A stretch of 37,453 nucleotides of DNA from Acidobacteriota bacterium (GTDB taxonomy: Bacteria; Acidobacteriota; Terriglobia; Terriglobales; Acidobacteriaceae). The translations under genes were made by a program, and so were the position numbers. Position 1 is the stretch's first letter. Each line of letters opens with the position of its first letter. The notes beneath the pieces are model-generated. The model saw nothing but the letters and a program-made list of their open reading frames with translations. It had not been told where the DNA came from and did no database searches. Positions 4,251 to 32,907 of this stretch are shown here, in pieces. The stretch is from NCBI GenBank assembly GCA_021806005.1, contig JAJZDM010000028.1, positions 1-37,453 on the forward strand, written 5' to 3'.

Positions 4251-4297
4251 CCTTGCAGGTAAAATGACGGAAGGATTGACGGATGATTTTTTAATTG

Positions 4298-15446: not shown

Positions 15447-15851
15447 GGCTCCTGCGAGAGATGGATAAACTTTGAGACCTTTCACTTGAATCACCTCGAA
15501 GGCCGGAAATCTCATCCGGCCTTGTTCAGTGAAGCGGGAAACCCGTAAAACAGGCATAATCGCCGGACTGGATATCGGAGGTCCTCATTCGGTCATGATC
15601 CATGAGGGCCGAGAGAAAATCTCCGGCTCGCAGTGGCGCGGCACGCTGAGTGGGGAGCCTCCACGAGGGATGAGTCCGCGCCCGGTTGAAGTGGGAGTCT
15701 GCTCCAGCTATGCGGGAGGGTTCTGCCATGGTCTTCGCCTTGGAGCGGTTGCGCAGCGAGGTACAACGGAGCAGAGGAGGACTGCCGCTCTTTATGGGTT
15801 TCTTATGGGTGGCGTCGTAGGCTGTGAAGGGCGAGTGACTAAAGAGAGGCC
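15447..15851. other. Divergent intergenic region between receptor and sensor kinase
   Basis: About 400 nt hold the promoters of two divergent units. No credible gene is seen: a + strand frame at 15529-15921 overlaps the kinase start and looks unlike protein. The clearest signal is a pair of identical octamers just upstream of the kinase, listed separately. Confidence 0.5.
15792..15810 (+). promoter_or_regulatory. Direct repeat with 11-bp period, candidate OmpR-family operator
   Basis: TTATGGGT occurs at 15792-15799 and again at 15803-15810, exactly 11 bp apart, ending 41 nt before the kinase start codon. OmpR/PhoB-family regulators bind as tandem dimers to direct repeats spaced about 10-11 bp, and such a regulator is encoded in this operon. 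Autoregulation is inferred. Confidence 0.5.
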
Positions 15852-18360: not shown

Positions 18361-20742
18361 ATGATCCCAAAGCTCTTTATGCGTCCTTCCGTTCCTGGTG
18401 GCAACTCCTCCGCCAGGCCCCTTCCGGTGGTGCAAGGCAAGCAAAGATTCAGAGAGCGGTCTCGCTCCCGGTGGACGATGGCCCGACTGTGCGGGGTCGT
18501 CTTCCTTGTTCCCGCAGGAGCCGGGCTGTTTGCCGCTGTTCCGCTGTGCGCCCAGACTGCTCACCACTCCGCACGGAGGACGCAGGTCTATCAGAATGCG
18601 GATGCGCCGATCGAAGCACGCGTCGATGATCTGCTGGGCCGGATGACGCTGCAGGAGAAGGTGCGGCAACTGGATATGTACGCTGGCGCGACCTCCATCA
18701 TGAGCCGCTACTCGAACAAGACCCATGCAGCGCCCGATGCGATGTTTGTCCCTGCAAAGGCCGAGGCGGTGTGGGGCGAGGCGGGCGTGGGCTCCATCCA
18801 CGATCTGAATCCGACGCCGGAGCAGTCGAATGCGATCCAAAGATGGGTGATCTCCCATAGCCGCCTGGGGATTCCGGTTCTGTTTATCGAGGAGGGGCTG
18901 CATGGATTCGACACCGGCACCGTCTTTCCCGCGCCGCTGGGTCTGGGCGGTACGTGGGATCGACAACTTCTGCGAGCGGCGGGCTCGAGTATCGGATCCG
19001 AGGCCCGCGCCACCGGTGTGGACATGATCCTCGCCCCGGTTTTGAACCTGGCTCGGGATCCGCGATGGGGCAGGGTTGAGGAGACGTACGGCGAGGATCC
19101 TTACCTGGCGGGGCAGATGGGACTCTCCTTCATCGACGGGGCGCAGGGAGATGGCCTGGCGACGGATGACACTGTGGTTGCGGAGCCCAAGCACTTTGCC
19201 GCCTATGGCGCGCCGGAGGCCGGCACCAACACCTCTCCGGTGGATATGGGAGAGCGTGAGTTGCGGATGATCATGCTGCAGCCGTTTGAAACCGCGGTTC
19301 GTCAGGGGCATGTGATGAGTGTGATGGCCGCCTATAACGAGATCGACGGCGTTCCGATGACCGCCAATCCGTTTTTGCTGAAGACGGTGCTGCGGCGGGA
19401 GTGGGGCTTCAAAGGCTTTGTGCTCTCTGATCTTGGCGCTATTGAGAATCTATACAAGGTGCATAAGGTAGCCGCGACACCGCAGGACGCAGCCTGTATG
19501 GCGATACGGGCGGGCGTGGACATGCAGTTCTACGATATTCCCCAGGATGTGTTTGACCGTGACCTGATGGGCTGTGTTCACGATGGGTCGATTTCCGAGG
19601 AGGACGTTGATCGTGCCGTTCGCTCGGTGCTTCGGGTGAAGTTTGCCCTGGGGCTCTTTGACCATCCCTATGTGGATCCGGCGCTGGAGGCAAGGGTGTA
19701 TCGTTCGCCGGCTCATCTTGCCGTCTCGCTGCGCGCCGCTCTTGAGTCGATGACCTTGCTCAAGAACGAAGATCATCTGCTGCCGCTCTCCCGATCCACG
19801 CAGCGCATCGCGGTGATCGGTCCCAATGGCGACAAGGCGCGTTACGGCGACTATGAAGATCATGCGAATGGATTGAAGATCAGTATGCTTGAGGGGATTC
19901 GCGAGCTTCTACCGCAGGCGACAGTGAGCTTCGACGATGGGAGCGACATCGAGTCTGCTGTAGCGAAGGCCCGCAGCGCGCAAGTGGTGATCCTGGGACT
20001 CGGCGAGTGGCAGGGGGTCTCTGGTGAGGGCTTTGACCGGTCCGGCCTTGGCTTGCCGGGCAACCAGGAGAAGCTGCTCGAAGCCGTCGCCGCTGCGGGA
20101 AGGCCAGTGGTGCTGGTTCTGGACAATGGACGGCCGCTGACGATTGGCTGGGCAGCGAAGCATGTGCCCGCAATTCTGGAGGCTTGGTATCCGGGTGAGT
20201 ATGGCGGAAGAGCGATCGCCGAAACCCTCTTTGGAGAGAATGATCCGGGTGGCCACCTTGCCGTGACCTTTCCCCAGCGAGTGGGACAACTACCGGACGC
20301 CTATGACGCCGATCCCTCGCGCGTCTATCGGTACATTGATTCCGATGGCAAGCCCTTGTTTCCCTTCGGATTTGGGCTGAGTTACACCACCTTTCGGTTT
20401 GACCATCTGGCGGTGAAGGCGCCGGTTGCCGGTAGCCATGGCGATATTGAAGCTACTGTAGACGTTACGAATACGGGTACGCTCGCAGGGGATGAGGTCG
20501 CCCAGCTCTATGTGCGGGAGGATGCGGGCAGTGTGGAGACTCCGAGCCGGGCTCTGGCAGGTTTTTCCCGCATCCATCTTGCACCAGGGCAGACCACGAC
20601 CGTTGCCTTCCATGTACCGCAGCAGCAGGTTGCGGTGTGGAACGCCGAGAGGCGATGGGCGGTTGAGCCGGGTGCTTATACGGTGTGGGCGGGCGACTCC
20701 TCCCTGGCGTCTTTGTCCGCGCAGTTCACACTGAGACCGTGA
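18361..20742 (+). CDS. Glycoside hydrolase family 3 (beta-glucosidase/beta-xylosidase type)
   Basis: A secreted retaining glycosidase of about 793 residues. After a signal sequence (hydrophobic MARLCGVVFLVPAGAGL, cleavage near LCAQ) comes the GH3 N-terminal barrel with IEEGLHGF and DPRWGRVEETYGEDP, and the nucleophile Asp357 in FVLSDLGAIENL. The C-terminal alpha/beta sandwich has LGEWQGVSGEGFDR, whose Glu after SG is the likely acid/base. A fibronectin-III-like domain (FGFGLSYTTF, then DEVAQLYV) closes the protein. Substrate cannot be read from sequence. The start is uncertain: ATG 18361 puts a long basic leader before the hydrophobic stretch, while ATG 18478 would give a compact standard signal peptide. 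GH92 follows 86 nt downstream, probably in one operon. Confidence 0.92.
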   Translation: MIPKLFMRPSVPGGNSSARPLPVVQGKQRFRERSRSRWTMARLCGVVFLVPAGAGLFAAVPLCAQTAHHSARRTQVYQNADAPIEARVDDLLGRMTLQEKVRQLDMYAGATSIMSRYSNKTHAAPDAMFVPAKAEAVWGEAGVGSIHDLNPTPEQSNAIQRWVISHSRLGIPVLFIEEGLHGFDTGTVFPAPLGLGGTWDRQLLRAAGSSIGSEARATGVDMILAPVLNLARDPRWGRVEETYGEDPYLAGQMGLSFIDGAQGDGLATDDTVVAEPKHFAAYGAPEAGTNTSPVDMGERELRMIMLQPFETAVRQGHVMSVMAAYNEIDGVPMTANPFLLKTVLRREWGFKGFVLSDLGAIENLYKVHKVAATPQDAACMAIRAGVDMQFYDIPQDVFDRDLMGCVHDGSISEEDVDRAVRSVLRVKFALGLFDHPYVDPALEARVYRSPAHLAVSLRAALESMTLLKNEDHLLPLSRSTQRIAVIGPNGDKARYGDYEDHANGLKISMLEGIRELLPQATVSFDDGSDIESAVAKARSAQVVILGLGEWQGVSGEGFDRSGLGLPGNQEKLLEAVAAAGRPVVLVLDNGRPLTIGWAAKHVPAILEAWYPGEYGGRAIAETLFGENDPGGHLAVTFPQRVGQLPDAYDADPSRVYRYIDSDGKPLFPFGFGLSYTTFRFDHLAVKAPVAGSHGDIEATVDVTNTGTLAGDEVAQLYVREDAGSVETPSRALAGFSRIHLAPGQTTTVAFHVPQQQVAVWNAERRWAVEPGAYTVWAGDSSLASLSAQFTLRP

Positions 20743-20828: not shown

Positions 20829-23147
20829 ATGACGATGAAGTACACGATGATCCTGATGGCGTTAGCCCTGCTTGCAGGCGGCCGTGTCCCTGCTCAAAGC
20901 GTTCCTGAGCCGCAGAAGCAGCCGGTGGATTATGTGAACCCCAACATCGGCGGTATCGGAATTCTGCTGACTTCTACCGCCCCCTACGTGCAGTATCCCT
21001 TTGGCATGGCGCGGATGGCGCCGGTGACGACACCGGGAATCGTGGACCGTTATCTGGCCGACAAAATCTATGGCTTTCCCGCCGGTCCGGCGATGCTGAT
21101 GGTCTCCACCGGCGCATTGGATACGGACGCCCGCAGCTATGCCTCGGACTACGATCACGACTTTGAGCGAGCGACGCCGTACTACTATGAAGCGGATCTG
21201 CAGACATGGGGCGTTCAGGCGGAGTCCACGGTGACCCGGGATGCGATCTTCTATCGCTTCACCTTTCCAGCAAGCCCCCACGCGCATCTTGTGCTGAGCA
21301 TGGCGCAGGATGCGACGCTGGCGGTGGTGGGAAACAACGTGGTGCAGGGAAGCAGACAGGTGTATGGAGCCTATGGTCGGAATGGCGTGCCCTCCAGCGC
21401 GAATCAAGAGACCAGGGAGTACTTCTACGCGGTGTTTTCGCAACCGGTGAACTCCTGGCGGACGTGGCAGGGTGCGCAGCTTGGGAAGTTGCCGGAGCAG
21501 AGCGGTGGGGCGATCGGGTACGTCGGCAGTCTGAGTACCACGGCAGGAGAGACGATGGATGTCCGCGTCGGTATCTCCTACATCAGCGTTGAGCAGGCCA
21601 GGAGCAACCTGGAGGAGCAGATTACGGAGGGGACGTTTGACCAGGTGACTCAGAAGGCCAGGGCGGCGTGGGATGATGCGCTGGGACAGATTGCTTTTAC
21701 GGGAGGCAGCGAAAGACAGAAGACGATTTTTTACACCGCGCTGTATCGCTCGCTGCAGCGGATGACCGACATTACCGAGGATGGCCTGTACTACAGCGGA
21801 TATGACCATGCGGTGCATGACGCGAACGGCCATGATTTCTATGTAGATGATGGAGCCTGGGATACCTTCCGCTCGATGCATCCGTTACAACTGCTGCTGA
21901 ACGGCAGGCAGCAGGAGGATATGATCCGCTCCTATGTGCGCATGTACCAGCAGAGCGGCTGGATGCCGTCTTTTCCATCGGTGTCGGGATCCAAGGCGGT
22001 AATGATCGGACATCACGCGGATGAGATCATACTGGACGCTTATGAGAAAGGCTTCCGGAACTTCAACGTGGAGGCGGCTTACGAGGCGATGAAGAAGAAC
22101 GCCACGCAGGCGAGCATGATCCCCTGGACGCTGGATCCGATGACGCGTCTGGGCAGGGAGTATCTGCAGAAGGGATTCTTCCCCGCGCTGGCCTATGGAG
22201 AGAAAGAGACCGTACCGCAGGTGACGCAGGAGCGCCGACAGGCAGTCTCTGTGACGCTGGAGACGGCCTATGACGACTGGTGTGTGGGAACCATGGCGAA
22301 GGCGCTTGGAAAGACCGCGGATGCCGCCTACTTCATGAAGCTGGCCCAAAACTACAGGAATGTCTTCAACCCGGCGATAGGGTTCATGGCTCCCAGGAGC
22401 GCCGATGGAAGCTGGGTGGCTCCCTTTGACCCGAAGCTGGGTGGAGGACAGGGCGCGCGGGACTACTTCACGGAGATGGATGGGTGGGTGTACACCTTCA
22501 GCGTGCAGCACGATGTTGCGGGGTTGATCGGTCTGATGGGTGGCCGGGACAGGTTCAACTCCAGACTCGATCAGTTGTTTGTGGAGCAGTATGGAGTTCC
22601 GAAGTACAAGTTCCTCAGCCAGTTTCCCGATGCGACGGGATTAATTGGTCTGTACGCGCAGGGGAACGAGCCAAGCTTTCACATTCCTTATCTCTATGAC
22701 TTCTCCGGCGAGCCGTGGAAGACCCAGTTCCGCGTCCGGCAGCTTCTCGGCATCTGGTATGGCGATGGTCCGCTGGGAGTTCCGGGTGATGACGATGGTG
22801 GCGAAACCTCGTCCTGGTATGTTCTGAGCGCGCTGGGGTTCTATCCGGTTTGCCCGGGCAGCCCGGTGTATGAGATTGGCAGCCCAATCTTTCCCAGAAG
22901 CGTGATCCGGATGGGGAATGGACGGGAGTTCACGATCATCGCCAATGGCGACTCTGCCAAGAACAAGTACATCCAGTCCGCCACGCTGAATGGCCACCCG
23001 CTGGATAAGCCGTGGTTCAGCCAGGCAGAGATCGCCAAGGGAGCTACCCTGGTTCTGCAGATGGGTGACAGACCGAATCTGCAATGGGGAAGTGCGCCAG
23101 AGGATGCGCCGCCTTCCATGTCGACGACGACCTCTGATCAGGACTGA
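20829..23147 (+). CDS. Glycoside hydrolase family 92 (alpha-mannosidase family)
   Basis: A secreted enzyme of 772 residues with signal peptide (MKYTMILMALALLAGG, cleavage near VPAQ). GH92 enzymes are calcium-dependent inverting exo-alpha-mannosidases. Family features: VDYVNPNIGG at the mature N-terminus, DHDFERATPYYYEADL, DDGAWDTFRSMHPL, NEPSFHIPYLYDF (Glu614, likely acid position), and PGDDDGGETSSWY (Asp654-656, Ca2+/base region) followed by LGFYPVCPGSP. The last motif is usually PGNDDGGQMSAWY-like, so the Gln-Met to Glu-Thr change may bear on specificity. Start: AAAGGG lies 7 nt before ATG 20829, and the signal peptide begins there. Together with GH3 it suggests breakdown of mannose-containing glycans such as fungal wall or N-glycan material. 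Confidence 0.93.
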   Translation: MTMKYTMILMALALLAGGRVPAQSVPEPQKQPVDYVNPNIGGIGILLTSTAPYVQYPFGMARMAPVTTPGIVDRYLADKIYGFPAGPAMLMVSTGALDTDARSYASDYDHDFERATPYYYEADLQTWGVQAESTVTRDAIFYRFTFPASPHAHLVLSMAQDATLAVVGNNVVQGSRQVYGAYGRNGVPSSANQETREYFYAVFSQPVNSWRTWQGAQLGKLPEQSGGAIGYVGSLSTTAGETMDVRVGISYISVEQARSNLEEQITEGTFDQVTQKARAAWDDALGQIAFTGGSERQKTIFYTALYRSLQRMTDITEDGLYYSGYDHAVHDANGHDFYVDDGAWDTFRSMHPLQLLLNGRQQEDMIRSYVRMYQQSGWMPSFPSVSGSKAVMIGHHADEIILDAYEKGFRNFNVEAAYEAMKKNATQASMIPWTLDPMTRLGREYLQKGFFPALAYGEKETVPQVTQERRQAVSVTLETAYDDWCVGTMAKALGKTADAAYFMKLAQNYRNVFNPAIGFMAPRSADGSWVAPFDPKLGGGQGARDYFTEMDGWVYTFSVQHDVAGLIGLMGGRDRFNSRLDQLFVEQYGVPKYKFLSQFPDATGLIGLYAQGNEPSFHIPYLYDFSGEPWKTQFRVRQLLGIWYGDGPLGVPGDDDGGETSSWYVLSALGFYPVCPGSPVYEIGSPIFPRSVIRMGNGREFTIIANGDSAKNKYIQSATLNGHPLDKPWFSQAEIAKGATLVLQMGDRPNLQWGSAPEDAPPSMSTTTSDQD

Positions 23148-23366: not shown

Positions 23367-24500
23367 ATGGCCACGTCGCTCTCGTTCACCGGGTATGTAC
23401 TGAAGAACCTACGTCGCCGACGGTTGAGGACGCTGCTGACGCTCTTCGGGATCGGCATGGCGGTGGGAGCGTTTGTGGGCCTGGTGGGGTTCTCGACCTC
23501 CTTTGAGCAACAATGGATGCGCATTTACTCCAGCACCGATACGGATTTTTCCGTTATCCAAGGCAGCTTTCTGAATACGACCCTGGACCAGACGGCGGCG
23601 GCGAAGATTCGGGCCCTGCCCATGGTGGCCCAGGTATCACCTACCATCTTCAACCTGATGGACGTGACGCCCACGATCAATGCGCTGGTCTATGGCTGGA
23701 AGGTGAACGCCTTCGAGTTCAACTCCCTGAAGATCATCGACGGGAAACGAGTGAGTGACGGGCAGCCGGAGGTGATGCTGGGCGACCTGCTGGCGCAGGA
23801 TCTGAAGAAATCGCCCGGCGATAACATCGAACTGCAGGGCACGGAGTTTCGCGTGACTGCGATCTATCACGCCGCATCGACGCTTGAAGCAGCCGCGATC
23901 GTCATGCCGCTCGACCAGTTGCAGCAGTTAAGCGGCATGGACGGGAAGGTTTCAACCATTGATGTGCGCCTGCGTCCTGCCCCGGAGGGCGAGGCGCAGG
24001 AGGCCTACATCCGGTCCGCGCAGGCTGCGATTCAGGCGGCGGTTCCGGGCGCGCGCGCCGTGCCCGCGGCTGAGCGGGCCAGCAGCAATCAGTTTGTGGC
24101 GCTGGCCAAGACCTCAGCCTGGGGAACCTCGGCGCTGGCGCTGGTGATCGGCATACTGGGCATCGCCAATACCATGGCCATGTCCGTCTTTGAGCGCACG
24201 CGCGAGATCGGCATTCTGCGGGCGCTGGGATGGAAGCAGTGGAAGGTGCTGGCGCACATCGAGCTGGAGGCCGCCCTGCTCGGCCTGGGCGGAGGCGTGC
24301 TGGGCATCGGCCTGGGTTGGTGCGCCCTGTGTGTGCTGGCGGTGCTGCCGCAGACGGCAAGCTTCTTTGTGGCCACTGTGCAGTGGCCTGTGCTGGTGAA
24401 GGCGCTGGCCATCGCCGTTCTGGCCGGGCTGATGGCCGGTGTGGTTCCGGCCTGGCGCGCCGGGAAGCTCTCCCCCGTGGATGCGCTGCGGTGCGATTGA
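23367..24500 (+). CDS. ABC transporter permease (MacB/FtsX/LolC type)
   Basis: A 377-residue inner-membrane permease with the type VII ABC layout: one N-terminal membrane helix (about 24-44, after KNLRRRRLRT), a large periplasmic domain (about 45-255), and three C-terminal helices (about 258-370) with the motif ERTREIGILRALGWKQW that couples to the ATPase. Such permeases move substrates between the inner membrane or periplasm and the outer membrane rather than across the membrane. Its ATPase is not adjacent but 1.8 kb downstream, after a glycosyltransferase. The next gene starts about 90 nt later, across an 11-bp repeat array. Upstream Shine-Dalgarno is weak. Substrate unknown. Confidence 0.88.
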   Translation: MATSLSFTGYVLKNLRRRRLRTLLTLFGIGMAVGAFVGLVGFSTSFEQQWMRIYSSTDTDFSVIQGSFLNTTLDQTAAAKIRALPMVAQVSPTIFNLMDVTPTINALVYGWKVNAFEFNSLKIIDGKRVSDGQPEVMLGDLLAQDLKKSPGDNIELQGTEFRVTAIYHAASTLEAAAIVMPLDQLQQLSGMDGKVSTIDVRLRPAPEGEAQEAYIRSAQAAIQAAVPGARAVPAAERASSNQFVALAKTSAWGTSALALVIGILGIANTMAMSVFERTREIGILRALGWKQWKVLAHIELEAALLGLGGGVLGIGLGWCALCVLAVLPQTASFFVATVQWPVLVKALAIAVLAGLMAGVVPAWRAGKLSPVDALRCD

Positions 24501-24507
24501 GCGATTG

Positions 24508-24583
24508 GGAGACGGCTTGAGACGGGCTTGAGAACGTTCTGAGAACGATTCAGGAATGGTTGTGGAACGACTTGGAAACGATC
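24508..24583 (+). repeat. Degenerate tandem array, seven units of ~11 bp
   Basis: From 24508 the gap reads as consecutive units: GGAGACGGCT, TGAGACGGGCT, TGAGAACGTTC, TGAGAACGATT, CAGGAATGGTT, GTGGAACGACT, TGGAAACGATC. All but the first are 11 nt. The consensus is TGAGAACGATT. It fills most of the space between the permease and glycosyltransferase genes. Function unknown: possible protein-binding array in helical phase, or slippage-derived sequence. Confidence 0.6.
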
Positions 24584-24593
24584 GAAGAAAGGC

Positions 24594-25862
24594 ATGATGC
24601 GATTCGGAGCTTTCTGCTTTCCAGCTACCGGGCACATTAACCCGATGACGGCCCTGGCCCGCTCTTTGGAGCTGAGGGGCCACAAGGTAATTCTCTTTGG
24701 AATCGCCGACACCGAGGAGCGGGTGCGGGCCGCAGGGATAGAATTCCACTGCATCGGCGCAGAAGAGTACCCGGTGGGTACGCTGGCAAAGCTGGACGAG
24801 CGTATGGCTGGGCTGAAGGGCCTGGCTACCCTGCGCTTTACCCTGGAACGGGTGAGGAACTCGGCACGCATGGTGCTGCGCGACGGGCCGCGCGCGGTGC
24901 GCCAGGCCGGCGTGGAGGCGCTGCTGGTGGACGAGGCCGACTTTGCAGGCAATGTGGCCGACTACCTGGGGTTGCCCTGGATCTCAATTGCGCTGCTGCC
25001 TCCGCTGCTGCACGACGACCGCTTCCCGCCCTTCTGGCTGGGCTGGGCGGCGCGTGAAGACTGGCTGGGCCGGCTGCGTAACCGGGTGGCCATCGAACTG
25101 CTGCTGCGGATCGGCGCTCCCATCTTTCGCGAGATCAGCGCGCAGCGCGTCGCCTGGGGATTGAAGCCCTACGAGCGCCCCGAGGATGGACTCTCAACCC
25201 TGGCGCAGATCACCCAGTTGCCCGAGGAGTTCGAGTTTCCGCTACGAGGTCCAAAGCCGCCGGGTCTTTATTACACGGGGCCATTTGTCCATGCCCGGCA
25301 GCGTCCGGCGGTGGAGTTCTGCTGGGAACGCCTGGATGGACGCCCACTGATCTATGCCTCGCTCGGCACCTTTCAAAATGGATCGGAGAAGATCTTTCGG
25401 GTGATCGCCGAGGCCTGCGCGGGACTGGATGCTCAACTGTTGATCTCCCTGGGCGGCGGACTGGATCCCGCGCGACTGGGCCCGCTGGCGGGTGCGCCTG
25501 TGGTGGTGAGCTTTGCGCCTCAACTGGAGATTTTGAAGCTGGCCTCGCTGGTGATTACTCATGCCGGGATCAACACAGCGCTGGAGTCGCTCTCCGAGGG
25601 AGTTCCGATGGTCGCCGTGCCGCTGGGCAACGATCAACCCGGGGTTGCGGCGCGGTTGAAGGCGCGCGGGGCAGGGGTGGTGGTCTCACGGCATCGCCTG
25701 ACGCCAGCGCGGCTTCGCAAGGCAGTCCGGCTGGTGCTGGAAGACCACTCCTACCGTGAGGCGGCGAAAAGGCTGCAGGAGGCCATTCAGCGGCAGGATG
25801 GCCCCGGCCGCGCGGCAGAGCTGATCGAAGGGGTCTTCGAGCGTCAGCGCGTGAGAGTCTGA
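24594..25862 (+). CDS. UGT-type glycosyltransferase (GT1; MGT/CrtX-like)
   Basis: A 422-residue cytoplasmic or membrane-associated GT-B enzyme that transfers a sugar from a nucleotide sugar to a small, usually hydrophobic acceptor. The N-terminal half begins FPATGHINPMTALARSL, typical of the family. The C-terminal half has LIYASLGTF and a donor-binding box FAPQLEIL..., THAGINTALESL, GVPMVAVPLGNDQP, which resembles zeaxanthin and macrolide glucosyltransferases. ATG 24594 is followed directly by ATG 24597; GAAAGG just upstream fits the second somewhat better. It sits between the permease and its ATPase, so its product is a candidate cargo of that transporter. The acceptor is not identifiable from sequence. 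Confidence 0.88.
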   Translation: MMRFGAFCFPATGHINPMTALARSLELRGHKVILFGIADTEERVRAAGIEFHCIGAEEYPVGTLAKLDERMAGLKGLATLRFTLERVRNSARMVLRDGPRAVRQAGVEALLVDEADFAGNVADYLGLPWISIALLPPLLHDDRFPPFWLGWAAREDWLGRLRNRVAIELLLRIGAPIFREISAQRVAWGLKPYERPEDGLSTLAQITQLPEEFEFPLRGPKPPGLYYTGPFVHARQRPAVEFCWERLDGRPLIYASLGTFQNGSEKIFRVIAEACAGLDAQLLISLGGGLDPARLGPLAGAPVVVSFAPQLEILKLASLVITHAGINTALESLSEGVPMVAVPLGNDQPGVAARLKARGAGVVVSRHRLTPARLRKAVRLVLEDHSYREAAKRLQEAIQRQDGPGRAAELIEGVFERQRVRV

Positions 25863-26270
25863 ATCAGGGACGGAGCGCCTGCCATCGTGTGCAGCGATCG
25901 AGGGCGCCGCCCATGCGTTCCGCGAGTGGCGGCGATGCTGTGGCCTCCGCGCCAGATGACAGAAAGATGACGAATCGATGACGGAAGGATGACGATCATC
26001 TGGTGCGAAGATGCGCTGGAGGCAAGGATTCCGCAGGGAATTGGCTTGCGGGGGGCTGAATTGCGGGAAGGGTATGACCTTCTGCGATCCCTCCCATAAG
26101 AGCGCAATCCGCGTAACATTTTATTTATACGGTTATTTCGATCGCTGATGCTGGAAGGCTGTTGACCTTTGGCCTCCGCGGTCGTCTTTGAGGTTGGGTG
26201 TGATGATTGTTGCAGGCGATTTTTTTGCGTGCGGGAGTGTCTCGCGCGTTCCGGACGGAGGCTCAACCGC
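25863..26270. other. Intergenic region before the ABC ATPase; AT-rich patch and 11-bp array
   Basis: About 410 nt without a supported gene. It holds the GATGAC array (listed separately) and then an AT-rich patch at 26115-26140 (TTTTATTTATAC) that contrasts with the GC-rich surroundings and probably contains the promoter of the ATPase operon, although no -35/-10 pair is convincing. A run of T (26220-26226) lies nearer the gene. Frames running into the ATPase from 26169 are not protein-like. Confidence 0.45.
25955..25998 (-). promoter_or_regulatory. Four GATGAC direct repeats with exact 11-bp period (Pho-box-like)
   Basis: GATGAC occurs at 25955, 25966, 25977 and 25988. Read on the other strand the units are GTCATC with 5-nt spacers, and the first unit reads CTGTCATC. 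PhoB boxes are TGTCA-type direct repeats with an 11-bp period, so this resembles a double Pho box. Orientation relative to the ATPase operon (start 26271) is reversed from the usual, so identity and target are uncertain. Confidence 0.5.
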
Positions 26271-26936
26271 ATGAGCAGCCCCATTCTTGAAGTACGCGAC
26301 GTATACAAGAGCTACGAGGATGGACGCATCGAAGCCTTGCGTGGAGTGGACCTCTCGATCGATGCCGGCGAGTACGTGGCCATCAGCGGCCATAGCGGCA
26401 GCGGCAAATCCACGCTGCTGCATCTGCTGGGCGGACTGGATAGCCCAAGCCGGGGGGACGTGCTCTTCCGTGGGGTTCCGCTGGGCTCCTCGTTCGATCT
26501 CGACACCTATCGCTGCGATCATGTAGGCTTCGTCTTCCAGGCGTTTTACCTGCTGCCCACGCTGCAGGCTGTAGAAAACGTGCAGGCGCCGATGCTGGCC
26601 TCGCGGAGCGGCAACGGCGATCGTCGTCGGCGCGCCGAGAAGTTGCTACGGGAGATGGGCATGGAACACCGCATGGAGCAGCATCCGAGCAAGCTCTCCG
26701 CAGGAGAGCGGCAGCGTGTGGCGATCGCTCGAGCGCTGGCCAATGAGCCCGACATCCTGCTGGCCGACGAGCCCACGGGCAATCTCGACAGCAAAAACTC
26801 CGCACTGATTATGGAGATTCTGACCGGAATTCAGCGATCGCGTGGCATGACGCTGATTGTGGTGACGCATGAGGACGAGATCGCCCATTCGGCGCCGCGT
26901 CACATCCGGGTGCATGACGGGAGGATCGCCTCGTGA
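26271..26936 (+). CDS. ABC transporter ATP-binding protein (LolD/MacB type)
   Basis: A 221-residue ATPase subunit. Walker A is GHSGSGKST (residues 40-48), the Q-loop is in FVFQAFYLLPTL, the signature is LSAGERQRVAIARAL, Walker B is DILLADEPTGNLDS, and the switch His is in VVTHEDEIAH. The order and the LLPTLTAxENV-like segment place it with LolD, MacB-N and FtsE. ATG 26271 begins where the family does, with GGAGG 9 nt upstream. The stop overlaps the start of the LolA-like gene (GTGA). The likely permease partner is the gene at 23367, as no other type VII permease is in the window. Confidence 0.93.
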   Translation: MSSPILEVRDVYKSYEDGRIEALRGVDLSIDAGEYVAISGHSGSGKSTLLHLLGGLDSPSRGDVLFRGVPLGSSFDLDTYRCDHVGFVFQAFYLLPTLQAVENVQAPMLASRSGNGDRRRRAEKLLREMGMEHRMEQHPSKLSAGERQRVAIARALANEPDILLADEPTGNLDSKNSALIMEILTGIQRSRGMTLIVVTHEDEIAHSAPRHIRVHDGRIAS

Positions 26937-27724
26937 GACGGGCCACTGTGATGATGGCAGCCGCACTGTTGTTTACCGGCGCAGCCAGCGTAGCGGAGAC
27001 ACCGGCGGATCTGGTTACAGTGCGGAGCCGCATCGAAGCTTCGGATTATCGTGCCACTGGCCAACTCGTCCGCGTGGATGCCAGCGGAGGTCGTACCCGT
27101 TTCGCCATCTCCGCCAAGGGGCTGTGGATGGATGGAGCGCTGCACACGCTGATCGAAGCTGTTCCAGCGAAAGGAGCAGCGGTGGACGGAAAGGATGAGC
27201 CGCTCCGACTTCTGCTGGAGGTGCGTCCGGATGGCAGAGACAGCATCCGCATCTTTCGCCCGCACGCGGCCGCGCCGCAGTTGCTGCCGCCGGAGAAGTG
27301 GGGTGATCGTCTTCTGGGCACTGTCTTCAGCTACGAAGATCTGCTTGATCCGCAGTTCTTCTGGCCGGAGCAGACGCTGCAGGGAGGAGTGATGTTCGAC
27401 GGACGAGCGTGCGATCTGCTGAAGAGTGAGCCGGGGCGCCTGGACCACACGAGCTACTCCGAGGTGCGCACCTGGCTGGATCACAGCATCGCCTACCCGG
27501 TGCACGCCGAGAAGACGCTGCGGCAGGGAGGAGCGGTGAAAGAGATTACCTACTACGGTCTGCGCCAAACCAATGGGGTATGGTCAGCCACACAGATCGA
27601 AGCGAGGATGCGCGGCCAGGCGGGCTCCGCGCTCTGGATCGTGAAGCGGGGCAGCGCGAAGGCCCATCTGGATGCAAACGACTTTAAACCCGGCGTTGTT
27701 GGCCGTTTCGAGGATCGCCCATGA
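26933..27724 (+). CDS. Periplasmic LolA-like outer-membrane lipoprotein-sorting family protein
   Basis: A 263-residue exported protein: signal peptide MRRATVMMAAALLFTGAASVA, then an all-beta region with alternating pattern (TGQLVRVDASGGRTRFAISAK), and the segments GDRLLGTVFSYEDLLDPQFFWP and YYGLRQTNGVWSATQIEAR. These match the family annotated as outer membrane lipoprotein-sorting protein (LolA/TP0789-like), half-barrels that carry acyl chains across the periplasm. It starts with GTG overlapping the ATPase stop and ends overlapping the hydrolase start (ATGA), so all three are co-translated. Context points to a carrier that receives the transporter's lipid-like substrate. No lipobox cysteine is present. 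Confidence 0.78.
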   Translation: MRRATVMMAAALLFTGAASVAETPADLVTVRSRIEASDYRATGQLVRVDASGGRTRFAISAKGLWMDGALHTLIEAVPAKGAAVDGKDEPLRLLLEVRPDGRDSIRIFRPHAAAPQLLPPEKWGDRLLGTVFSYEDLLDPQFFWPEQTLQGGVMFDGRACDLLKSEPGRLDHTSYSEVRTWLDHSIAYPVHAEKTLRQGGAVKEITYYGLRQTNGVWSATQIEARMRGQAGSALWIVKRGSAKAHLDANDFKPGVVGRFEDRP

Positions 27725-28749
27725 GTCTGACTCTTGCGATTTTGTTGCCTCTTGCCGTGATTCCTGCAGCGGGATTTCTCTATCAATCTCTGGGCGCGTT
27801 GCGCGATCGAAGACGGTTCACCAGCACAGGCCGCTGGGTCGAGATCGGCCGCGGACAGAAGCTGTTTGTAGTTGAGAAGGGATCGGGCGGGCCGGCGGTG
27901 CTGTTTGAGGCCGGCATCACAGCGACGAATTTGAACTGGCGGCATATTCAGGACAAGGTGGCCGGGTTCACCGCGACGGCGGCCTACGACCGCAGCGGCC
28001 TGGGCTGGAGCAGCGCCTGCTGCAGCCAGCGCACGCCAGGCAACATCTCCGCCGAACTGCACAGCATGCTGGAGTCGGCCGGTATTGAGCCGCCGTACAT
28101 CCTGGTAGGGCACTCCTTTGGCGGCCTGTGCGTGCGGCGCTACGCGACGCTCTATCCGGAAGAGGTTGCCGGCGTGGTGCTGGTGGATCCCATGCGCTGC
28201 GAGGAGTGGCCTCCGCTGAATCCCGACAAGCAGTCCATGATCGACCGGGGCAAGAGGCTCTCCGCTTGCGCGGTTCCGGTGGCGCGCTTTGGCGTGTTCC
28301 GGCTCGCCATCAGCCTGCTGTTCTACCGATCAAGCCGCCTCTCCGGCCGCATTGGTAAATCGGGTGGCATGGGCGGCCGGCACGTGCTGAAGCGGTTGAC
28401 CGAAGAGGTCGGCAAGCTGCCCCGGGATATCTGGCCGATCATTGCGGCGCACTGGTCCCGGCCAGAGTATTACATCGGGATGCAGCGCTATGTTTCGGCG
28501 GTTCCGGAGACGGTTTCAGAGATGAACAACGCGGAGCCGATTCACAACATCCCGGTTCTGGTGTTGACCCCGGGCAAATCGACACCGCTGTCAGAGCAGT
28601 GCCTGGCCAGGATCGGAAACAACGTGCGCCAGGTGATTGCAGAAGAGAGCGCGCACTGGATTCATCTGGACGAGCCGGATCTGGTGATCGATTCGATTCG
28701 CACGATGGTGAGCGAGGTCTCGCGCCCAGCCCTCTCCGCCTCGGCCTGA
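27721..28749 (+). CDS. Membrane-anchored alpha/beta hydrolase
   Basis: A 342-residue protein with an N-terminal hydrophobic helix (residues 2-25, no clear cleavage site), then an alpha/beta hydrolase fold. Nucleophile Ser132 lies in LVGHSFGG, the oxyanion region is near VLFEAGITATNLNW, and His312 in ESAHWIHLDEPDLV is the likely catalytic histidine. The acid is probably in VLVLTPGKSTPLSEQ or nearby. It could be an esterase, thioesterase or transacylase; sequence does not decide. ATG 27721 overlaps the LolA-like stop (ATGA). It is the last gene of the + strand unit and converges with the acyl ligase gene, 39 nt away. Confidence 0.88.
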   Translation: MSLTLAILLPLAVIPAAGFLYQSLGALRDRRRFTSTGRWVEIGRGQKLFVVEKGSGGPAVLFEAGITATNLNWRHIQDKVAGFTATAAYDRSGLGWSSACCSQRTPGNISAELHSMLESAGIEPPYILVGHSFGGLCVRRYATLYPEEVAGVVLVDPMRCEEWPPLNPDKQSMIDRGKRLSACAVPVARFGVFRLAISLLFYRSSRLSGRIGKSGGMGGRHVLKRLTEEVGKLPRDIWPIIAAHWSRPEYYIGMQRYVSAVPETVSEMNNAEPIHNIPVLVLTPGKSTPLSEQCLARIGNNVRQVIAEESAHWIHLDEPDLVIDSIRTMVSEVSRPALSASA

Positions 28750-28788
28750 TCGCGGAGCCTGCAGAAGATCCTCAATGCAGCGGTGAGA

Positions 28789-30396
28789 TCAGTCCGCGGT
28801 TGCGGCGAATCGCTCCTGGAGTTCACGCCTCAGGAACTTGCCGGTGTGGTTCTGCGGGAGTTCGCCGGGAGAGAGAATCCAGATGCGGCGCGGCGATTTG
28901 TAGGCAGCCAAGCGGCTGCGGCACCACTCCAGCAGATCGGTCTCGCCGGCGGTGGCTCCAGGATGCAGTTCGACCGCCGCCACGGGCATCTCTCCCTTTT
29001 CGCGGTGTGGAAGGCCAAAGGCGACGGCGCGCGCGACATCCGGATGGGCCAGGATGGTCTCTTCCAACTCCTTCACATACACCGAGTAGCCGCCGGCCTT
29101 GATGACGTCCTTGGCGCGCCCCACCAAGCGGATGAGCCCGAGGCGGTTGCGGACGGCCAGGTCGCCGGTGCGGAGCCAGCCGTCGCCGGTCAGGATACCT
29201 TCCTGCGTGTCGCCCTTGTCCTTCCAGTAATGCGGCCGGATGCCGTGGCGGCGGATCTGACACTCGCCGGTAGCTCCCGGAGGCAACACGCGGCCGTCTG
29301 CATCGACGACGCGGATACGAAACGGCGGCACGGGGATGCAGAGGTCGCCGCTGCCGGGAGCGAATGGAAGCTCAACGCCCATCATGGCCAGGCCCCCCAG
29401 TTCGACCATGCCGTAACCGTTGAGCAGCACGGGCGGAACACGCAGTCCACCCGGCAGCCGCAGCAGAGCCCCGAAGCGGCGCAGTTGCAGCCGCACCTCG
29501 GCGGGCAGATGATCGCTGGCCGAGAGCCAGAGGCGCACGCTGGTCAGCCGGGTCGGGTCAGGATGAGCGTTGACCAGCCGCGCAAACATCGCCGGAACGC
29601 CAATGACCGAGGTTACGTGAAACCGCTCGATGAGGCTCAGCGCGGCCTCGGCGTCGAAGCGGTTGAGGAAGCAGCCGCGGATGCCCGCCATGAGGCCGTA
29701 GAGCGCGATGGAGACCGCCATGATGTGCGACCAGGGCAGGGCGACCAGGGCCAGGTCGCGCGATCCCAGGAAGACACCGGAAAGAACGGTGGACGCGCGC
29801 GCGCCCAGCAGCGCGTTGCTGGACAGGGCTGCGCCCTTGGGGAATCCGCTGGTTCCCGAGGTGTGAAAGATGGCGATGGTCGCCGCGGGATCGATGTTGT
29901 GCGGAGGAAATACGGCGGCAGGGGTTGCCGGCGCGCGGAGAAATCCGTTGAGGGTCTCCGGCTCGTCGTCGGCCTCGATCCAGGTGCGCACGTCCAGGGC
30001 TTGACGGTCGCCGATGGTGCGCTCGAAGACGGCCTTGTCGGTGACCAGGATGTGCGTTCCGCTATCAGCCAGGATGCGGCGAACCTCCGCCAGCGAGAGT
30101 TGCGGATTGAGCGGGACCGCGATGCCCCCGGCGCGAACGATGGCCAGAAACCAGTGGAAGCAGCGCCGGTCGTTGGTGCGATAGATGGCGACCTGCTCGC
30201 CGGGCCGCAGGGCGATGGTCTGGCGGAGGAAGGCATCGAGGGCGCAGATCTCCATGTGGAGATGGGAGAGACGAAAGGAGCCCTCATCGTCCACGGAGAC
30301 CTCGCAGTCTTCCTTGCGCCGGACGAGTTCGTCGATGAGATTGGCTACGGTGACGCTGGTGTCGCGCGAGAGACGGTAGCGAAGCAGAAGGCTCAT
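28789..30396 (-). CDS. AMP-forming acyl/aryl acid ligase (ANL superfamily)
   Basis: A 535-residue adenylating enzyme that activates a carboxylic acid, giving acyl-AMP and then a thioester. The ATP loop is TSGTSGFPKG (179-188), followed by YGMVELGG, the TGDLAVRNRLG and GRAKDVIKAGGYSVYVKELEE hinge region, and the C-terminal lysine Lys520 in PQNHTGKFLRREL. No carrier-protein domain or phosphopantetheine site is attached. Acid specificity cannot be read. ATG 30396 overlaps the stop of the reductase gene (ATGA), which fixes the start and indicates translational coupling. A 552-residue frame on the + strand over the same DNA is a composition shadow. Confidence 0.92.
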   Translation of the reverse strand: MSLLLRYRLSRDTSVTVANLIDELVRRKEDCEVSVDDEGSFRLSHLHMEICALDAFLRQTIALRPGEQVAIYRTNDRRCFHWFLAIVRAGGIAVPLNPQLSLAEVRRILADSGTHILVTDKAVFERTIGDRQALDVRTWIEADDEPETLNGFLRAPATPAAVFPPHNIDPAATIAIFHTSGTSGFPKGAALSSNALLGARASTVLSGVFLGSRDLALVALPWSHIMAVSIALYGLMAGIRGCFLNRFDAEAALSLIERFHVTSVIGVPAMFARLVNAHPDPTRLTSVRLWLSASDHLPAEVRLQLRRFGALLRLPGGLRVPPVLLNGYGMVELGGLAMMGVELPFAPGSGDLCIPVPPFRIRVVDADGRVLPPGATGECQIRRHGIRPHYWKDKGDTQEGILTGDGWLRTGDLAVRNRLGLIRLVGRAKDVIKAGGYSVYVKELEETILAHPDVARAVAFGLPHREKGEMPVAAVELHPGATAGETDLLEWCRSRLAAYKSPRRIWILSPGELPQNHTGKFLRRELQERFAATAD

Positions 30397-31499
30397 GCGG
30401 CGGAGACCGGTTTGCGGCCCCACTCGCTGGCCACGCAGTAGTTGAAGAGACGATCGAGATAATCCAGAACCGGCGGAGGCGTGAGGCCGGCGGGCTGCAG
30501 GAACCGCTGAGCGTTGCTGGTGTCAAACTGCATGCGCATGGTGAAGTAGTCGCGGTAGGCGCGTCCGTCGCGCAGCACGCTGCGTTTGCGGCCCCACAGC
30601 GCCATGAAGAGCAGCGGCCGCATGACAGCGAAGAAGAAACGCGGATCGACGTAGCGCGGCGCGGGACCGTGGAAGTACTCCCGGGCGCGGAGCGCAATCT
30701 GGTCGATGGTGGCGCTGCCCTGCGGGCCGGCGCAGAGATGCACGGTTGAGCCCAGCGCGGCCTGGTCAAAGAGAAGCAGAGCGACGGCGCGGGCGACATA
30801 GTCGACGGGCACGATGTCCAGCACGGCGTCAGGGTAACCAGGCACGGTCCGCCAGAGCCCGCGCGCGTAGATCTTCAGCGGCCAATACATCATCTTGAAG
30901 CTGGAGGTGACGCCGGTGCGGGAGTCTCCCACGATGATGCTGGGGCGCAGAATGACGCCGGGCATGGAGGTCAGACGGGAACGCACCAGCGCCTCGGCCT
31001 CTGCCTTGGTCTGCTCGTAGGTGTTTCGGTAGCTCTGTCCGATGGCCAGTTCGTCCTCGCGCACCAGGTCAGCGCGCTCGCCGGCCACGTAGGCTGTGCC
31101 CACATAGGCGAAGCTGCGCAACTGGCGCACGCTGCCTGCAAAGTCCAGAAGATGCCGGGTGCCCTCGACGTTGATGCGTCGCGCCTCCTCGAGGGAGTGA
31201 TCGAAGCGCACGGTGGCCGCGGAGTGAATCACGCGCGTGACCTCGGCCTGCAGACGCTGGCGTGTCGCCTCATCCAGGCCGCATCCGGGATGGCTTACAT
31301 CGCCGGAGACCGCCTGCACACGCGCGCGATCCGCCTCGGGGACGAAGGCGTGGACGCGCTGCTCACCGCTGAGCCCCGCGCGGTCACGGACCAGCAACGC
31401 CAGCCGTACATTCGGACGCTGGTCCAGCAGGTCGCGCACCAGTTGCATGCCCAGGAATCCGGTGGCCCCGGTGATTAGAATCAGTTCTTCGTCGACCAT
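30393..31499 (-). CDS. Thioester/fatty-acyl reductase, extended SDR (NAD_binding_4)
   Basis: A 368-residue NAD(P)H-dependent enzyme. The Rossmann motif TGATGFLG is at 10-17, IHSAATVRF at 91-99 is typical of fatty-acyl and carboxylic-acid reductases, and the catalytic YEQTK (Tyr161, Lys165) is present. The middle has ILRPSIIVGDSRTG and DIVPVDYVA, which fit the family. It would reduce an acyl-CoA or carrier-bound thioester to aldehyde or alcohol. Coupled to the ligase by ATGA, the pair resembles a carboxylic acid reductase split into two genes without carrier. The start ATG 31499 is chosen because it abuts the Rossmann strand and has GGAGG 11 nt upstream; GTG 31586 would add 29 residues. Confidence 0.88.
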   Translation of the reverse strand: MVDEELILITGATGFLGMQLVRDLLDQRPNVRLALLVRDRAGLSGEQRVHAFVPEADRARVQAVSGDVSHPGCGLDEATRQRLQAEVTRVIHSAATVRFDHSLEEARRINVEGTRHLLDFAGSVRQLRSFAYVGTAYVAGERADLVREDELAIGQSYRNTYEQTKAEAEALVRSRLTSMPGVILRPSIIVGDSRTGVTSSFKMMYWPLKIYARGLWRTVPGYPDAVLDIVPVDYVARAVALLLFDQAALGSTVHLCAGPQGSATIDQIALRAREYFHGPAPRYVDPRFFFAVMRPLLFMALWGRKRSVLRDGRAYRDYFTMRMQFDTSNAQRFLQPAGLTPPPVLDYLDRLFNYCVASEWGRKPVSAA

Positions 31500-31693
31500 G
31501 TCAAAAAGGGCCTCCGCCCGCGCAGCGTCGAGTTCGGCCAAGGTGGATCCGCGGAATCTGCATCCGGTGAGATCGCCGGCGATCACCCGTCCAGGGAACG
31601 TAGCGGATCTTCCTGTGGCTACATCCCTCGCTTGAGCCGTGTATCCCTATTCATCTTACTGTACGCAGCGCGGGACTCGCGGAGGGCGGTCTC

Positions 31694-32761
31694 TCAGGGC
31701 GAGAGCGGTTGAGACGGAGCCTTTGGGGCAGAGGGCGTGCTCTCTGGCTGGGACGGTGAGGACTGGGAGGGGGAGGGCTGGGACGGCGCAGGTGGAGTGG
31801 GGATGGGCTGCCCGTCGGGTCCGACCAGGCGGTCTGAGTCGATGATGGTGGAGCTGGTGGTGAACCGCTGGTAGTTGGAGGTCACCATACGGAAGGTGCC
31901 GTTAATGTGGTCAAAGAGGAGGATGCGCGCATTGCCCTCTCCGTTGACGTTTGCCGGGAGCCAGACCTCACCGGAGATATGCGTGGAGCGGAAGTCAAAG
32001 CTGAAGCCCTTGTGAATATTCAAAATGAGCCCTGCGCCGATCTTGAAGTCCTGAAGGAAGTGGCCCTGGCCGCGCACCAGGACGCGGCTCTGCTCGTCGA
32101 TCCATACGGTGCCGACGAGATTGCGGATGATGCCCTCTGACTCGTTGCGGATCTTTGCATGGGGATCTCCGGCGTAGTCCAGCACGATGGTGGGGCGGTT
32201 GTCGAGCAGGATGCGGCGGGGGTTGGAGAATGTGCCTAACTCGAGGATGCGCGAGACCGGGATGAGCGGGTTGCCGTGGGGATCAGAGGATTCGCCCTGG
32301 GAGGCGAGACGCTGGCGGCGGTTCCGGGCGCGGGCGACCTCCTTGTCGATGCGGTCGCTCTCCTTCCGGGCCTGCTCCGGGGTGAGAGGTTTGCCGTTGC
32401 GGGCGACTTCCTTGTCGATGCGGATACCGTCGATGGTGATGCTTTCAGTGTCCAGGGTAGAGATCTTTTTGGCGCGGCCGTTGTGGTCCAGTTGCTGGAG
32501 TTCGAAGTGCACGTGGTAGGTGTAGTCGCGCTGGGCGGCTTCGGCCTGCTTCTGATGCTGCTCGACGTCGTGGAGGAGTTGCGGGATGGGCGGTATCGGC
32601 TGGAGCGCGACGGAGGGCTGGACAGCAGCCTCTGCAGGCTTTGCGGCAGGGGATGCGGGTGGGGGTGAGGAGGGTTCGGCTTGCTGCGCGGATGCTGTGG
32701 GCAGGAGGAAGAGGATGCAGGCCAGGCAGGGGAGGTTGAGCATCGGGCCACGGCAGACCAT
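31694..32761 (-). CDS. Secreted protein of unknown function with proline/serine-rich ends
   Basis: Not recognised as a named family. About 355 residues: signal peptide (MLNLPCLACILFLLPTASA, cleavage before QQ), a proline/alanine-rich stretch (PSSPPPASPAAKPAE), a charged region with a repeated RIDKEVAR segment (at about 122 and 144), and a beta-rich globular part. That part (RILELGTFSNPRRILLDNRPTIVLDY, VGTVWIDEQSRVLVRGQ, EVWLPANVNGEG) looks like an outer-membrane lipoprotein-sorting-type fold. A low-complexity tail of PSQPSPSQSS-like repeats closes it. The first ATG giving a signal peptide is 32761; 32743 is also possible and neither has a clear Shine-Dalgarno. It is transcribed divergently from the MFS gene, 146 nt away. 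Confidence 0.7.
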   Translation of the reverse strand: MVCRGPMLNLPCLACILFLLPTASAQQAEPSSPPPASPAAKPAEAAVQPSVALQPIPPIPQLLHDVEQHQKQAEAAQRDYTYHVHFELQQLDHNGRAKKISTLDTESITIDGIRIDKEVARNGKPLTPEQARKESDRIDKEVARARNRRQRLASQGESSDPHGNPLIPVSRILELGTFSNPRRILLDNRPTIVLDYAGDPHAKIRNESEGIIRNLVGTVWIDEQSRVLVRGQGHFLQDFKIGAGLILNIHKGFSFDFRSTHISGEVWLPANVNGEGNARILLFDHINGTFRMVTSNYQRFTTSSTIIDSDRLVGPDGQPIPTPPAPSQPSPSQSSPSQPESTPSAPKAPSQPLSP

Positions 32762-32907
32762 GATTGCACTATAAATTGAGATCGCGCGGAAGACGGAGGA
32801 ACTGAGTGCGAGGCGTGGAGCAGGATCGGGCACCAGGCCCGGCGCCACGCCCGCGCAGGTTCAGGCGGAGGAAACAGTTCCGTAGCTAAGGGTGGCATCA
32901 TAGATCT

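Follow-up and report, generated by a model that had tools for sequence, protein, structure and literature searches.

A putative accessory envelope-lipid gene system of Acidobacteriaceae that links an acid ligase and a reductase to Lol-like export genes

The seven genes and their families

The subject of this study is a group of seven genes at positions 23367-31499 of a window that comprises one entire contig of 37,453 bases (JAJZDM010000028.1, assembly GCA_021806005.1) from a member of the Acidobacteriaceae, the source genome (G000) being 4.16 Mb in size and 97% complete. The group joins an acid ligase and a thioester reductase to a Lol-like permease, ATPase and carrier, with a hydrolase and a glycosyltransferase besides. 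That the seven families make up one system is well supported. Its genes probably convert an acid to a product akin to a fatty alcohol, in some cases with a sugar attached, and direct this product toward the outer membrane. Families were assigned with Pfam and with NCBIfam, the latter judged against the curated cut-offs of NCBI. All seven reading frames named in the original prediction exist, and each family call is upheld by Pfam.

The + strand carries five of the genes: a single MacB/LolC-type ABC permease of 377 aa (FtsX, 23367-24500; Pfam MacB_PCD 3.5e-20, FtsX 2.2e-20), a GT1/UGT-type glycosyltransferase of 422 aa that is an optional member (MGT, 24594-25862; UDPGT 5.4e-24), a LolD-type ABC ATPase of 221 aa (26271-26936; ABC_tran 2.2e-33), a LolA-like periplasmic carrier of 263 aa in which a Sec-type signal peptide was recognised by eye (26933-27724; PF17131 6.1e-15), and an alpha/beta hydrolase of 342 aa with an N-terminal membrane helix (ABH, 27721-28749; Abhydrolase_1 1.2e-14). 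On the - strand lie an AMP-forming acid ligase of the acyl-CoA synthetase type, 536 aa long (LIG, 28789-30399; AMP-binding 1.6e-53, C-terminal domain 4.2e-16), and a reductase of the thioester/fatty acyl-CoA reductase type (PF07993), 368 aa long (RED, 30393-31499; NAD_binding_4 8.3e-66). The frames of ligase and reductase overlap. The longest frame of the reductase starts at 31586; since the invariant Met of its alignment is at 31499, the latter is probably the start.

The NCBIfam matches are less firm. The ATPase has LolD (TIGR02211) as its best match at 235.1 bits, below the cut-off of 307.75, and also matches the DevA model at 171 bits (cut-off 296); the permease matches LolCE at 58 bits against a cut-off of 362.45. 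The glycosyltransferase matches the macrolide family TIGR01426 best (179.6 bits, cut-off 260), with another macrolide model at 90 bits against 700, and the Thioester-redct match of the reductase is likewise under its curated cut-off. Therefore the labels LolD-type, LolC-type and MGT-type are correct as types, and a plain "LolD" or "LolC" would claim too much.

Gene content and order among relatives

To collect relatives, an alignment of four reductases was used to search the genomes of 84,980 species, which gave 56 loci. The search matches exact short peptides, which limits its reach to close relatives, and every fetched locus has the reductase by construction, having been found through it alone. 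With the window there are 57 loci, from which 702 proteins, called by a simple script, were clustered. Contig ends cut many loci, so that the counts of families are minima. All 56 relatives are labelled as acidobacterial, many of them as Acidobacteriaceae, Granulicella, Edaphobacter or Terracidiphilus. At least two of the loci (L082 and L104) share one metagenome assembly, SKS5.bin94. Either a single organism has the system twice or the bin is mixed; the latter was considered because L104 is of nearly the same sequence type as the window.

Among the 57 loci the reductase family was counted in 55, the ligase in 53, the permease in 37, the LolD-type ATPase in 30, the LolA-like protein in 29, the hydrolase in 27 and the glycosyltransferase in 20. 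The next commonest family occurs in six, and only the seven exceed that number. The count for the ATPase includes a few non-orthologous ATPases, for example in L079 and L090. Carrier proteins, synthases, membrane-fusion proteins and resistance-nodulation-division (RND) pumps are not among the families that recur in the 57 loci, and one HlyD family is present in four of them only. The flanks vary: a major facilitator superfamily gene and the gene at 31694-32848 accompany the system in 4 of 56 loci, all near relatives.

Reductase and ligase are adjacent in 50 loci with a median overlap of 4 bases, and overlapping pairs are also formed by the hydrolase and the LolA-like protein (20) and by the ATPase and the permease (9). 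Three main layouts were found. In that of the window, the permease, the glycosyltransferase where it occurs, the ATPase, the LolA-like gene and the hydrolase point toward the ligase-reductase pair on the opposite strand. In the second, seen in Edaphobacter aggregans DSM 19364 (L102), Granulicella mallensis (L064) and others, the glycosyltransferase and permease diverge from the reductase, and the LolA-like and ATPase genes lie past the ligase. In the third, the permease alone faces the ligase. Gene content is thus retained, while order and strand differ by lineage. Genes whose association is kept through reshuffling usually function jointly, which suggests that these probably do so.

We also compared pairwise distances between the seven families. 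In 17 of 21 pairs none of 500 permutations gave a congruence as high; the four weaker pairs (6, 7, 42 and 83 of 500) all involve the LolD-type ATPase, whose cluster had mixed in other ATPases. This congruence is not used as support, because host ancestry alone yields such a correlation.

The macrolide-type match of the glycosyltransferase and the MacB-type permease could together be taken for antibiotic self-protection or resistance. The macrolide models were all matched below their cut-offs (179.6 vs 260; 90 vs 700), no MacA or TolC partner recurs in the 57 loci, and the LolA-like protein, ligase and reductase would be left unexplained. We therefore rejected macrolide resistance, which appears extremely improbable.

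Several features around the genes were seen besides. Upstream of the permease there is a frame of 754 aa (18478-20742), which three loci of near relatives share, followed by a GH92 glycosidase (20841-23147); elsewhere neither accompanies the system. Between the glycosyltransferase and the ATPase there is a 408-base gap without a clear gene (25863-26270). Ten loci, of which three are near-identical, have a gap of 323-496 bases; the alignment showed little conservation, and the idea of a conserved element in it was dropped. In L048, from a genome of the window's genus (G116), a gene resembling isocitrate lyase/phosphoenolpyruvate mutase by eye (4272-5168, - strand) and another frame lie between the glycosyltransferase and the ATPase.

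Co-distribution, separated loci and plasmid carriage

The distribution of the genes was followed in 120 genomes of the family and 396 genomes of the phylum. In the family sample, the reductase (E <=1e-60) is present in four genomes (G000, G116, G020 and G083), and an orthologue of the permease (E <=1e-150) in the same four, at 61-100% identity, the next permease reaching 30% at most. A close hydrolase (>=61%) is again confined to these four, with five further genomes at 35-41%. If the genes were independent, two sets of four would coincide among 120 with a probability of 1.2e-7, a value that is too small because the genomes are related, G000 and G116 sharing a genus. Neither the reductase nor the permease orthologue occurs in G064, of the genus of G000, or in G008, of the genus of G083. 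In the phylum sample the reductase was found at >=76% in 6 of 396 genomes, all of the same family, with the next best at 43%.

When 20 reductase carriers were chosen, 16 had the permease at E <=1e-60. Thirteen stretches from 12 carrier genomes were then taken as a check of split loci. In six genomes an intact permease-LolD-LolA-hydrolase operon stands apart from the reductase (L138, L139, L141, L144, L145, L146), and the ligase-reductase pair of these six has no LolD-LolA-hydrolase set alongside. Among the others, L142 is a 3.4 kb contig with the permease, the hydrolase and a partial glycosyltransferase, L143 holds permease and glycosyltransferase, L140 the permease alone, and four are the reductase loci themselves.

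Four of the 20 chosen carriers lack the permease. In two of them (L079 and L090), a different unit of a double FtsX permease, a LolA-like protein and a LolD-type ATPase lie beside the ligase. L079 contains a frame of 1086 aa (12878-16138, - strand), next to the LolD-type ATPase, which fuses two MacB/FtsX permease halves to a LolA-like domain; such a fusion would put the carrier at the mouth of the exporter. In L075 a LolA-like protein lies beside the ligase, and L084 shows no such gene in the 2.5 kb of contig remaining past the ligase. Further away, in a distant acidobacterial family, a reductase of 43% identity (G208) diverges from a run of LolA-like, FtsX, ABC-ATPase and LolA genes (L126:9292-15398), where the LolA-like match is weak (6.2e-5, under cut-off) and no ligase of the system was found within the 19.9 kb stretch. 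This neighbourhood is a single example, as the wider look reached only G208. Around seven other reductases (34-39%, other families), no permease, LolD, LolA-like protein, hydrolase or ligase was found within about 9 kb.

The complete plasmid pACIX901 (475,658 bases) of Granulicella tundricola MP5ACTX9 bears all seven genes (L151, NC_015057.1 74995-83263, ACIX9_RS19125 to RS19155), the permease having 71.6% identity. This plasmid is listed in the genome paper of the species, in an excerpt that does not mention the seven genes (PMC4148992). On plasmids the reductase had three other matches, all from haloarchaea and with 32-33% identity. The neighbours of the locus on pACIX901 are katG, a Fur-type regulator and a TonB-dependent receptor. 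Named cultured carriers are G. tundricola MP5ACTX9, G. mallensis X5P3 and E. aggregans DSM 19364.

The plasmid and the patchy distribution make hitch-hiking possible: a Lol-type transporter and a ligase-reductase pair might be two neighbouring modules, linked by descent and shared mobility, that have no joint product. The separation of the halves in several genomes and the second permease-glycosyltransferase pairs away from the reductase (described below) would fit this. On the other side stand the exact co-occurrence among the 120 genomes, the joint persistence through several rearrangements, and the occupation of the same spot in L079 and L090 by a different LolA/FtsX/LolD unit. We consider two unconnected modules quite improbable. 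One system is favoured because the halves adjoin or, where checked, mostly share a genome; independent occurrence of the transport genes and the ligase-reductase pair in most relatives was not seen in the 120 genomes and 56 loci. The earlier guess of one system is thus well supported, with only the seven families in more than six loci and permease and reductase exactly co-distributed in the family sample.

The glycosyltransferase as an optional member

The glycosyltransferase was linked in 20 of the 57 loci and adjoins the permease in 18 of these 20. In a tree of the reductases, one group of 21 rows (support 93/97) includes 17 of the 19 rows with a glycosyltransferase, and the remaining four rows of this group come from contigs that end early; outside the group it is linked in two. 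A search of 31 carriers at E <=1e-110, four with a linked copy and 27 without, gave a match in 16, and 12 of the 27 hold a copy elsewhere. In G522 it lies beside the second copy of the whole locus (L104). Two genomes of the family sample have it at 59-63% although they lack the reductase.

Twelve unlinked sites and L143 were inspected. In all six inspected genomes with copies of 70-74% identity (L143, L152-L156), the copy adjoins a second permease and forms a module with it, which suggests that the closer glycosyltransferase belongs with the permease and not with the reductase. The more distant copies (57-63%, 65% at most) have no permease alongside in 7 of 7 (L157-L163), and may serve another role. 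The inclusion of a glycosyltransferase in the system stands in part: it is a member in the window's lineage, tied to the permease, and optional elsewhere.

The C-terminal motif of the protein (H306, G308, T311, D330 and Q331, numbered on the script-called protein starting at 24645) is kept in 20 of 20 rows. Its structure matches include oleandomycin glycosyltransferase (2iya, 9.8e-29) and YjiC (6kqx, 8.1e-26), ranked below three entries named just "glycosyltransferase".

Chemistry of the reductase and ligase

The reductase matches PF07993 with 222.2 bits, above the cut-off of 20.1. Its motif TGxTGFLG, the Thr and the Tyr-x3-Lys are kept in every row with a letter there (46 to 55 of 55): T164 in all 53 rows that have a residue there, and Y190 and K194, as well as S216, in 55 of 55. 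The nearest solved structures are MxaA (4u7w, 4.4e-36) and a fatty acyl-CoA reductase (7eoz, 6.7e-25); the profile also matches carboxylic acid reductase (CAR; 5msc) at 4.3e-14. An Asp of CAR, which presumably holds the reduction at the aldehyde, is replaced by Ser in our reductase (S216) and in the fatty acyl-CoA reductase, and by Gly in MxaA. Such reductase domains can take aldehydes further, depending on the substrate (excerpt of PMC10168641). Because of the Ser and this published further reduction, an alcohol would be a likelier product than an aldehyde. No Pfam carrier domain was found in the reductase, and none was found in the ligase.

In the ligase, the residues of the adenylation motifs are largely kept, and the catalytic Lys520 of the C-terminal part is present in each of the 51 rows with a letter at that position. 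The structure matches include a fatty-acyl-CoA synthase (8weu, 6.6e-45), directly followed by feruloyl-CoA synthetase (8wev, 7.6e-45), and 4-coumarate-CoA ligases. The closeness of 8wev to 8weu, the coumarate ligases and the relation of the glycosyltransferase to 2iya and 6kqx would suit one system for a small aromatic (cinnamate/benzoate-type) acid, giving an aryl aldehyde or alcohol, its glucoside and ABC export, in the manner of plant monolignol glucosides or of plant-phenolic detoxification. We regard this as unlikely: a LolA-fold carrier is hard to square with a soluble glucoside, the best solved relatives of the reductase are MxaA and fatty acyl-CoA reductase, and the glycosyltransferase is unlinked in many loci.

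Putative export genes and hydrolase

The AlphaFold2 model of the LolA-like protein (pLDDT 85) was compared with known structures by Foldseek. The best matches are 3bk5 (1.8e-15, TM 0.75), P. gingivalis LolA3 (1.7e-14) and NE2245, with E from 1.8e-15 to 2.1e-10 and query TM-scores of 0.61-0.75, together with a DUF1329 protein, and the protein is accordingly predicted to have the LolA-superfamily fold. It is the only PF17131 protein over cut-off in G000, and the sister genome G064 has none over cut-off. In the LolD-type ATPase, the residues of Walker A, signature and Walker B are kept in 30 of 30 rows save one E to Q change.

A LolCE/LolD-like permease and ATPase and a carrier with the predicted LolA-superfamily fold might also constitute an accessory Lol machine that sorts a special lipoprotein, with the ligase and reductase altering its lipid anchor. 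The scores are far below the cut-offs (LolCE 58 vs 362, LolD 235 vs 308), no eighth family recurs that could supply a candidate lipoprotein in the loci, and there is a single permease instead of LolC plus LolE; we judge this improbable.

The hydrolase had been described as membrane-anchored, and its predicted model indeed has an N-terminal helix (3-34; mean pLDDT of the model 76). Ser132, Asp156, Glu162 and His312 are present in 27 of 27 rows. The helix is followed by invariant arginines, and by the positive-inside rule the enzyme part is predicted to be cytoplasmic. Very many alpha/beta hydrolases match the model at similar scores, and with its moderate pLDDT the comparison was uninformative past the fold; no function was derived from it.

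A proposed pathway

From the families, motifs, predicted fold, overlaps and co-distribution computed here, we infer the chemistry and the cargo as follows. The ligase would activate a carboxylic acid to an acyl-CoA, with a fatty acid as the likeliest substrate; the CoA form is suggested because the loci have no carrier-protein domain and no recurring carrier gene. The co-translated reductase would reduce the thioester, most likely to a primary alcohol, to whose hydroxyl the glycosyltransferase would add a sugar in the window's lineage. A homodimeric FtsX-type permease and the LolD-type ATPase may then lift the product from the inner membrane and pass it to the LolA-like carrier, which, judging from its fold and from the Lol and aryl-polyene systems, could ferry it over the periplasm. 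In the weakest step, the hydrolase, anchored to the membrane on its cytoplasmic face, might set the acid free by cleaving an ester, or act as an acyltransferase. Activation, reduction and export to a LolA-like carrier is a plausible sequence. To the fuller statement, in which the seven genes, the glycosyltransferase being optional, form a single accessory envelope-lipid system of Acidobacteriaceae that makes an alcohol from an acid and exports it in Lol-like fashion, we give about an even chance.

Several observations weigh against this statement. Linkage alone cannot separate a shared pathway from shared regulation. Four of the 20 chosen carriers had no permease at E 1e-60; in G130, G131 and G132 the sole permease is at the reductase locus, where LolD, LolA-like protein and hydrolase were not seen, these not having been sought elsewhere. 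LolA-like matches extend beyond the four carriers of the family sample to three genomes (41-45%) in which the other genes of the system are not nearby. With no eighth family in more than six of the 57 loci, no LolB-like outer-membrane acceptor recurs. The matches of the ligase span fatty, aromatic and malonyl types and do not single out a substrate. In addition, the glycosyltransferase is unlinked in many loci, 15 of the 31 searched carriers have no match to it, and its more distant copies stand without a permease.

Comparison with known systems

CAR and fatty acyl-CoA reductases share adenylation and thioester reduction with the locus. Unlike CAR, which has its adenylation, thiolation (T) and reduction domains (A-T-R) in one protein, the locus has separate ligase and reductase, no T domain, and a coupling to export genes. 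The LolCDE-LolA sorting machinery has in common with it an FtsX-type permease, a LolD-type ATPase and a carrier of LolA fold (predicted here). It uses two different permeases, LolC and LolE, whereas the locus has one permease gene, one recurring FtsX family, a PF17131 carrier and linked enzymes.

The heterocyst glycolipid chain of cyanobacteria ends as a long-chain alcohol, and its exporter comprises the FtsX/MacB-type DevC and the membrane-fusion protein DevB. The pathway shares with the locus a thioester reductase (HglB), a glycosyltransferase, HglT, that acts in the last step, and an ABC exporter, DevBCA, on which the glycolipid depends (excerpts of PMC8064123 and PMC10569477). In contrast, the locus has a free-standing ligase and neither polyketide synthase nor carrier-protein domain, a LolA-like carrier but no membrane-fusion family (HlyD/MacA) that recurs, a membrane-bound hydrolase, and a glycosyltransferase that is optional. 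The aryl polyene system of E. coli shares an acid-activating synthetase, a glycosyltransferase/acyltransferase and a LolA-like protein, and its LolA-like and LolB-like proteins were proposed to deliver a non-protein lipid to the outer membrane (excerpt of PMC8253772). Its RND transporter, ketosynthases and carrier proteins do not recur here, where an ABC permease and ATPase and a thioester reductase are found instead. These two are the nearest whole analogues. The present system belongs to neither, since its recurring families include none of the carrier proteins, synthases, membrane-fusion proteins or RND pumps. No paper on this gene combination was found in the open-licence papers of PubMed Central, a scope that proves no absence.

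Both ElbD and the PlsA/Ger enzymes act on acyl groups in lipid synthesis (excerpts of PMC10087280 and PMC13274423), and the original prediction had offered an ether-lipid role for the locus by analogy with the myxobacterial ElbD, in which ligase and reductase would supply a fatty alcohol or convert esters, yielding alkyl-glycerol ethers or membrane-spanning tetraethers. E. aggregans DSM 19364, which carries the locus (L102), is, we assume, the same strain as Wbg-1. The latter makes small amounts of branched glycerol dialkyl glycerol tetraether (brGDGT) and iso-diabolic acid glycerol ether (excerpt of PMC13274423). Eight carriers were searched for PF09989, and the control, Thermotoga maritima, gave the expected match. 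This domain, which we take to be typical of the ester-to-ether enzymes PlsA/Ger, is present in two of them, E. aggregans (G121:C45:11701-12390) and the genome of L099 (G127:C143:19042-19668), in frames of more than 1200 codons, and absent in the other six, G000 and G. mallensis included, some of these assemblies being incomplete. The locus therefore does not track a PlsA/Ger enzyme, and ether synthesis loses its best support. The PF09989 enzyme of E. aggregans would account for the known ethers without the locus, the loci share no additional enzyme family, and membrane lipids require no LolA-like carrier of their own. The ether-lipid role was thus not adopted, and we hold it to be very improbable.

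Significance

Taking the reading of an exported fatty-alcohol-like product further, we suggest, only tentatively, a transferable and partly plasmid-borne pathway for a surface lipid based on a fatty alcohol, which in the clade with the glycosyltransferase would be an alkyl glycoside; the pathway would have its own one-permease Lol-like delivery to the outer membrane and be a soil counterpart of the heterocyst glycolipids. To our knowledge, Lol-type machinery has few known cargoes other than proteins. The ligase-reductase pair and the Lol-like unit are kept together over dozens of acidobacterial genomes, and the cargo could therefore be found by comparing carriers and non-carriers within a genus. 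Soils are rich in acidobacteria, whose kinds of lipid serve as climate proxies. An unrecognised transferable lipid in these bacteria would be of interest to lipid chemists, to geochemists and to researchers of outer-membrane traffic.

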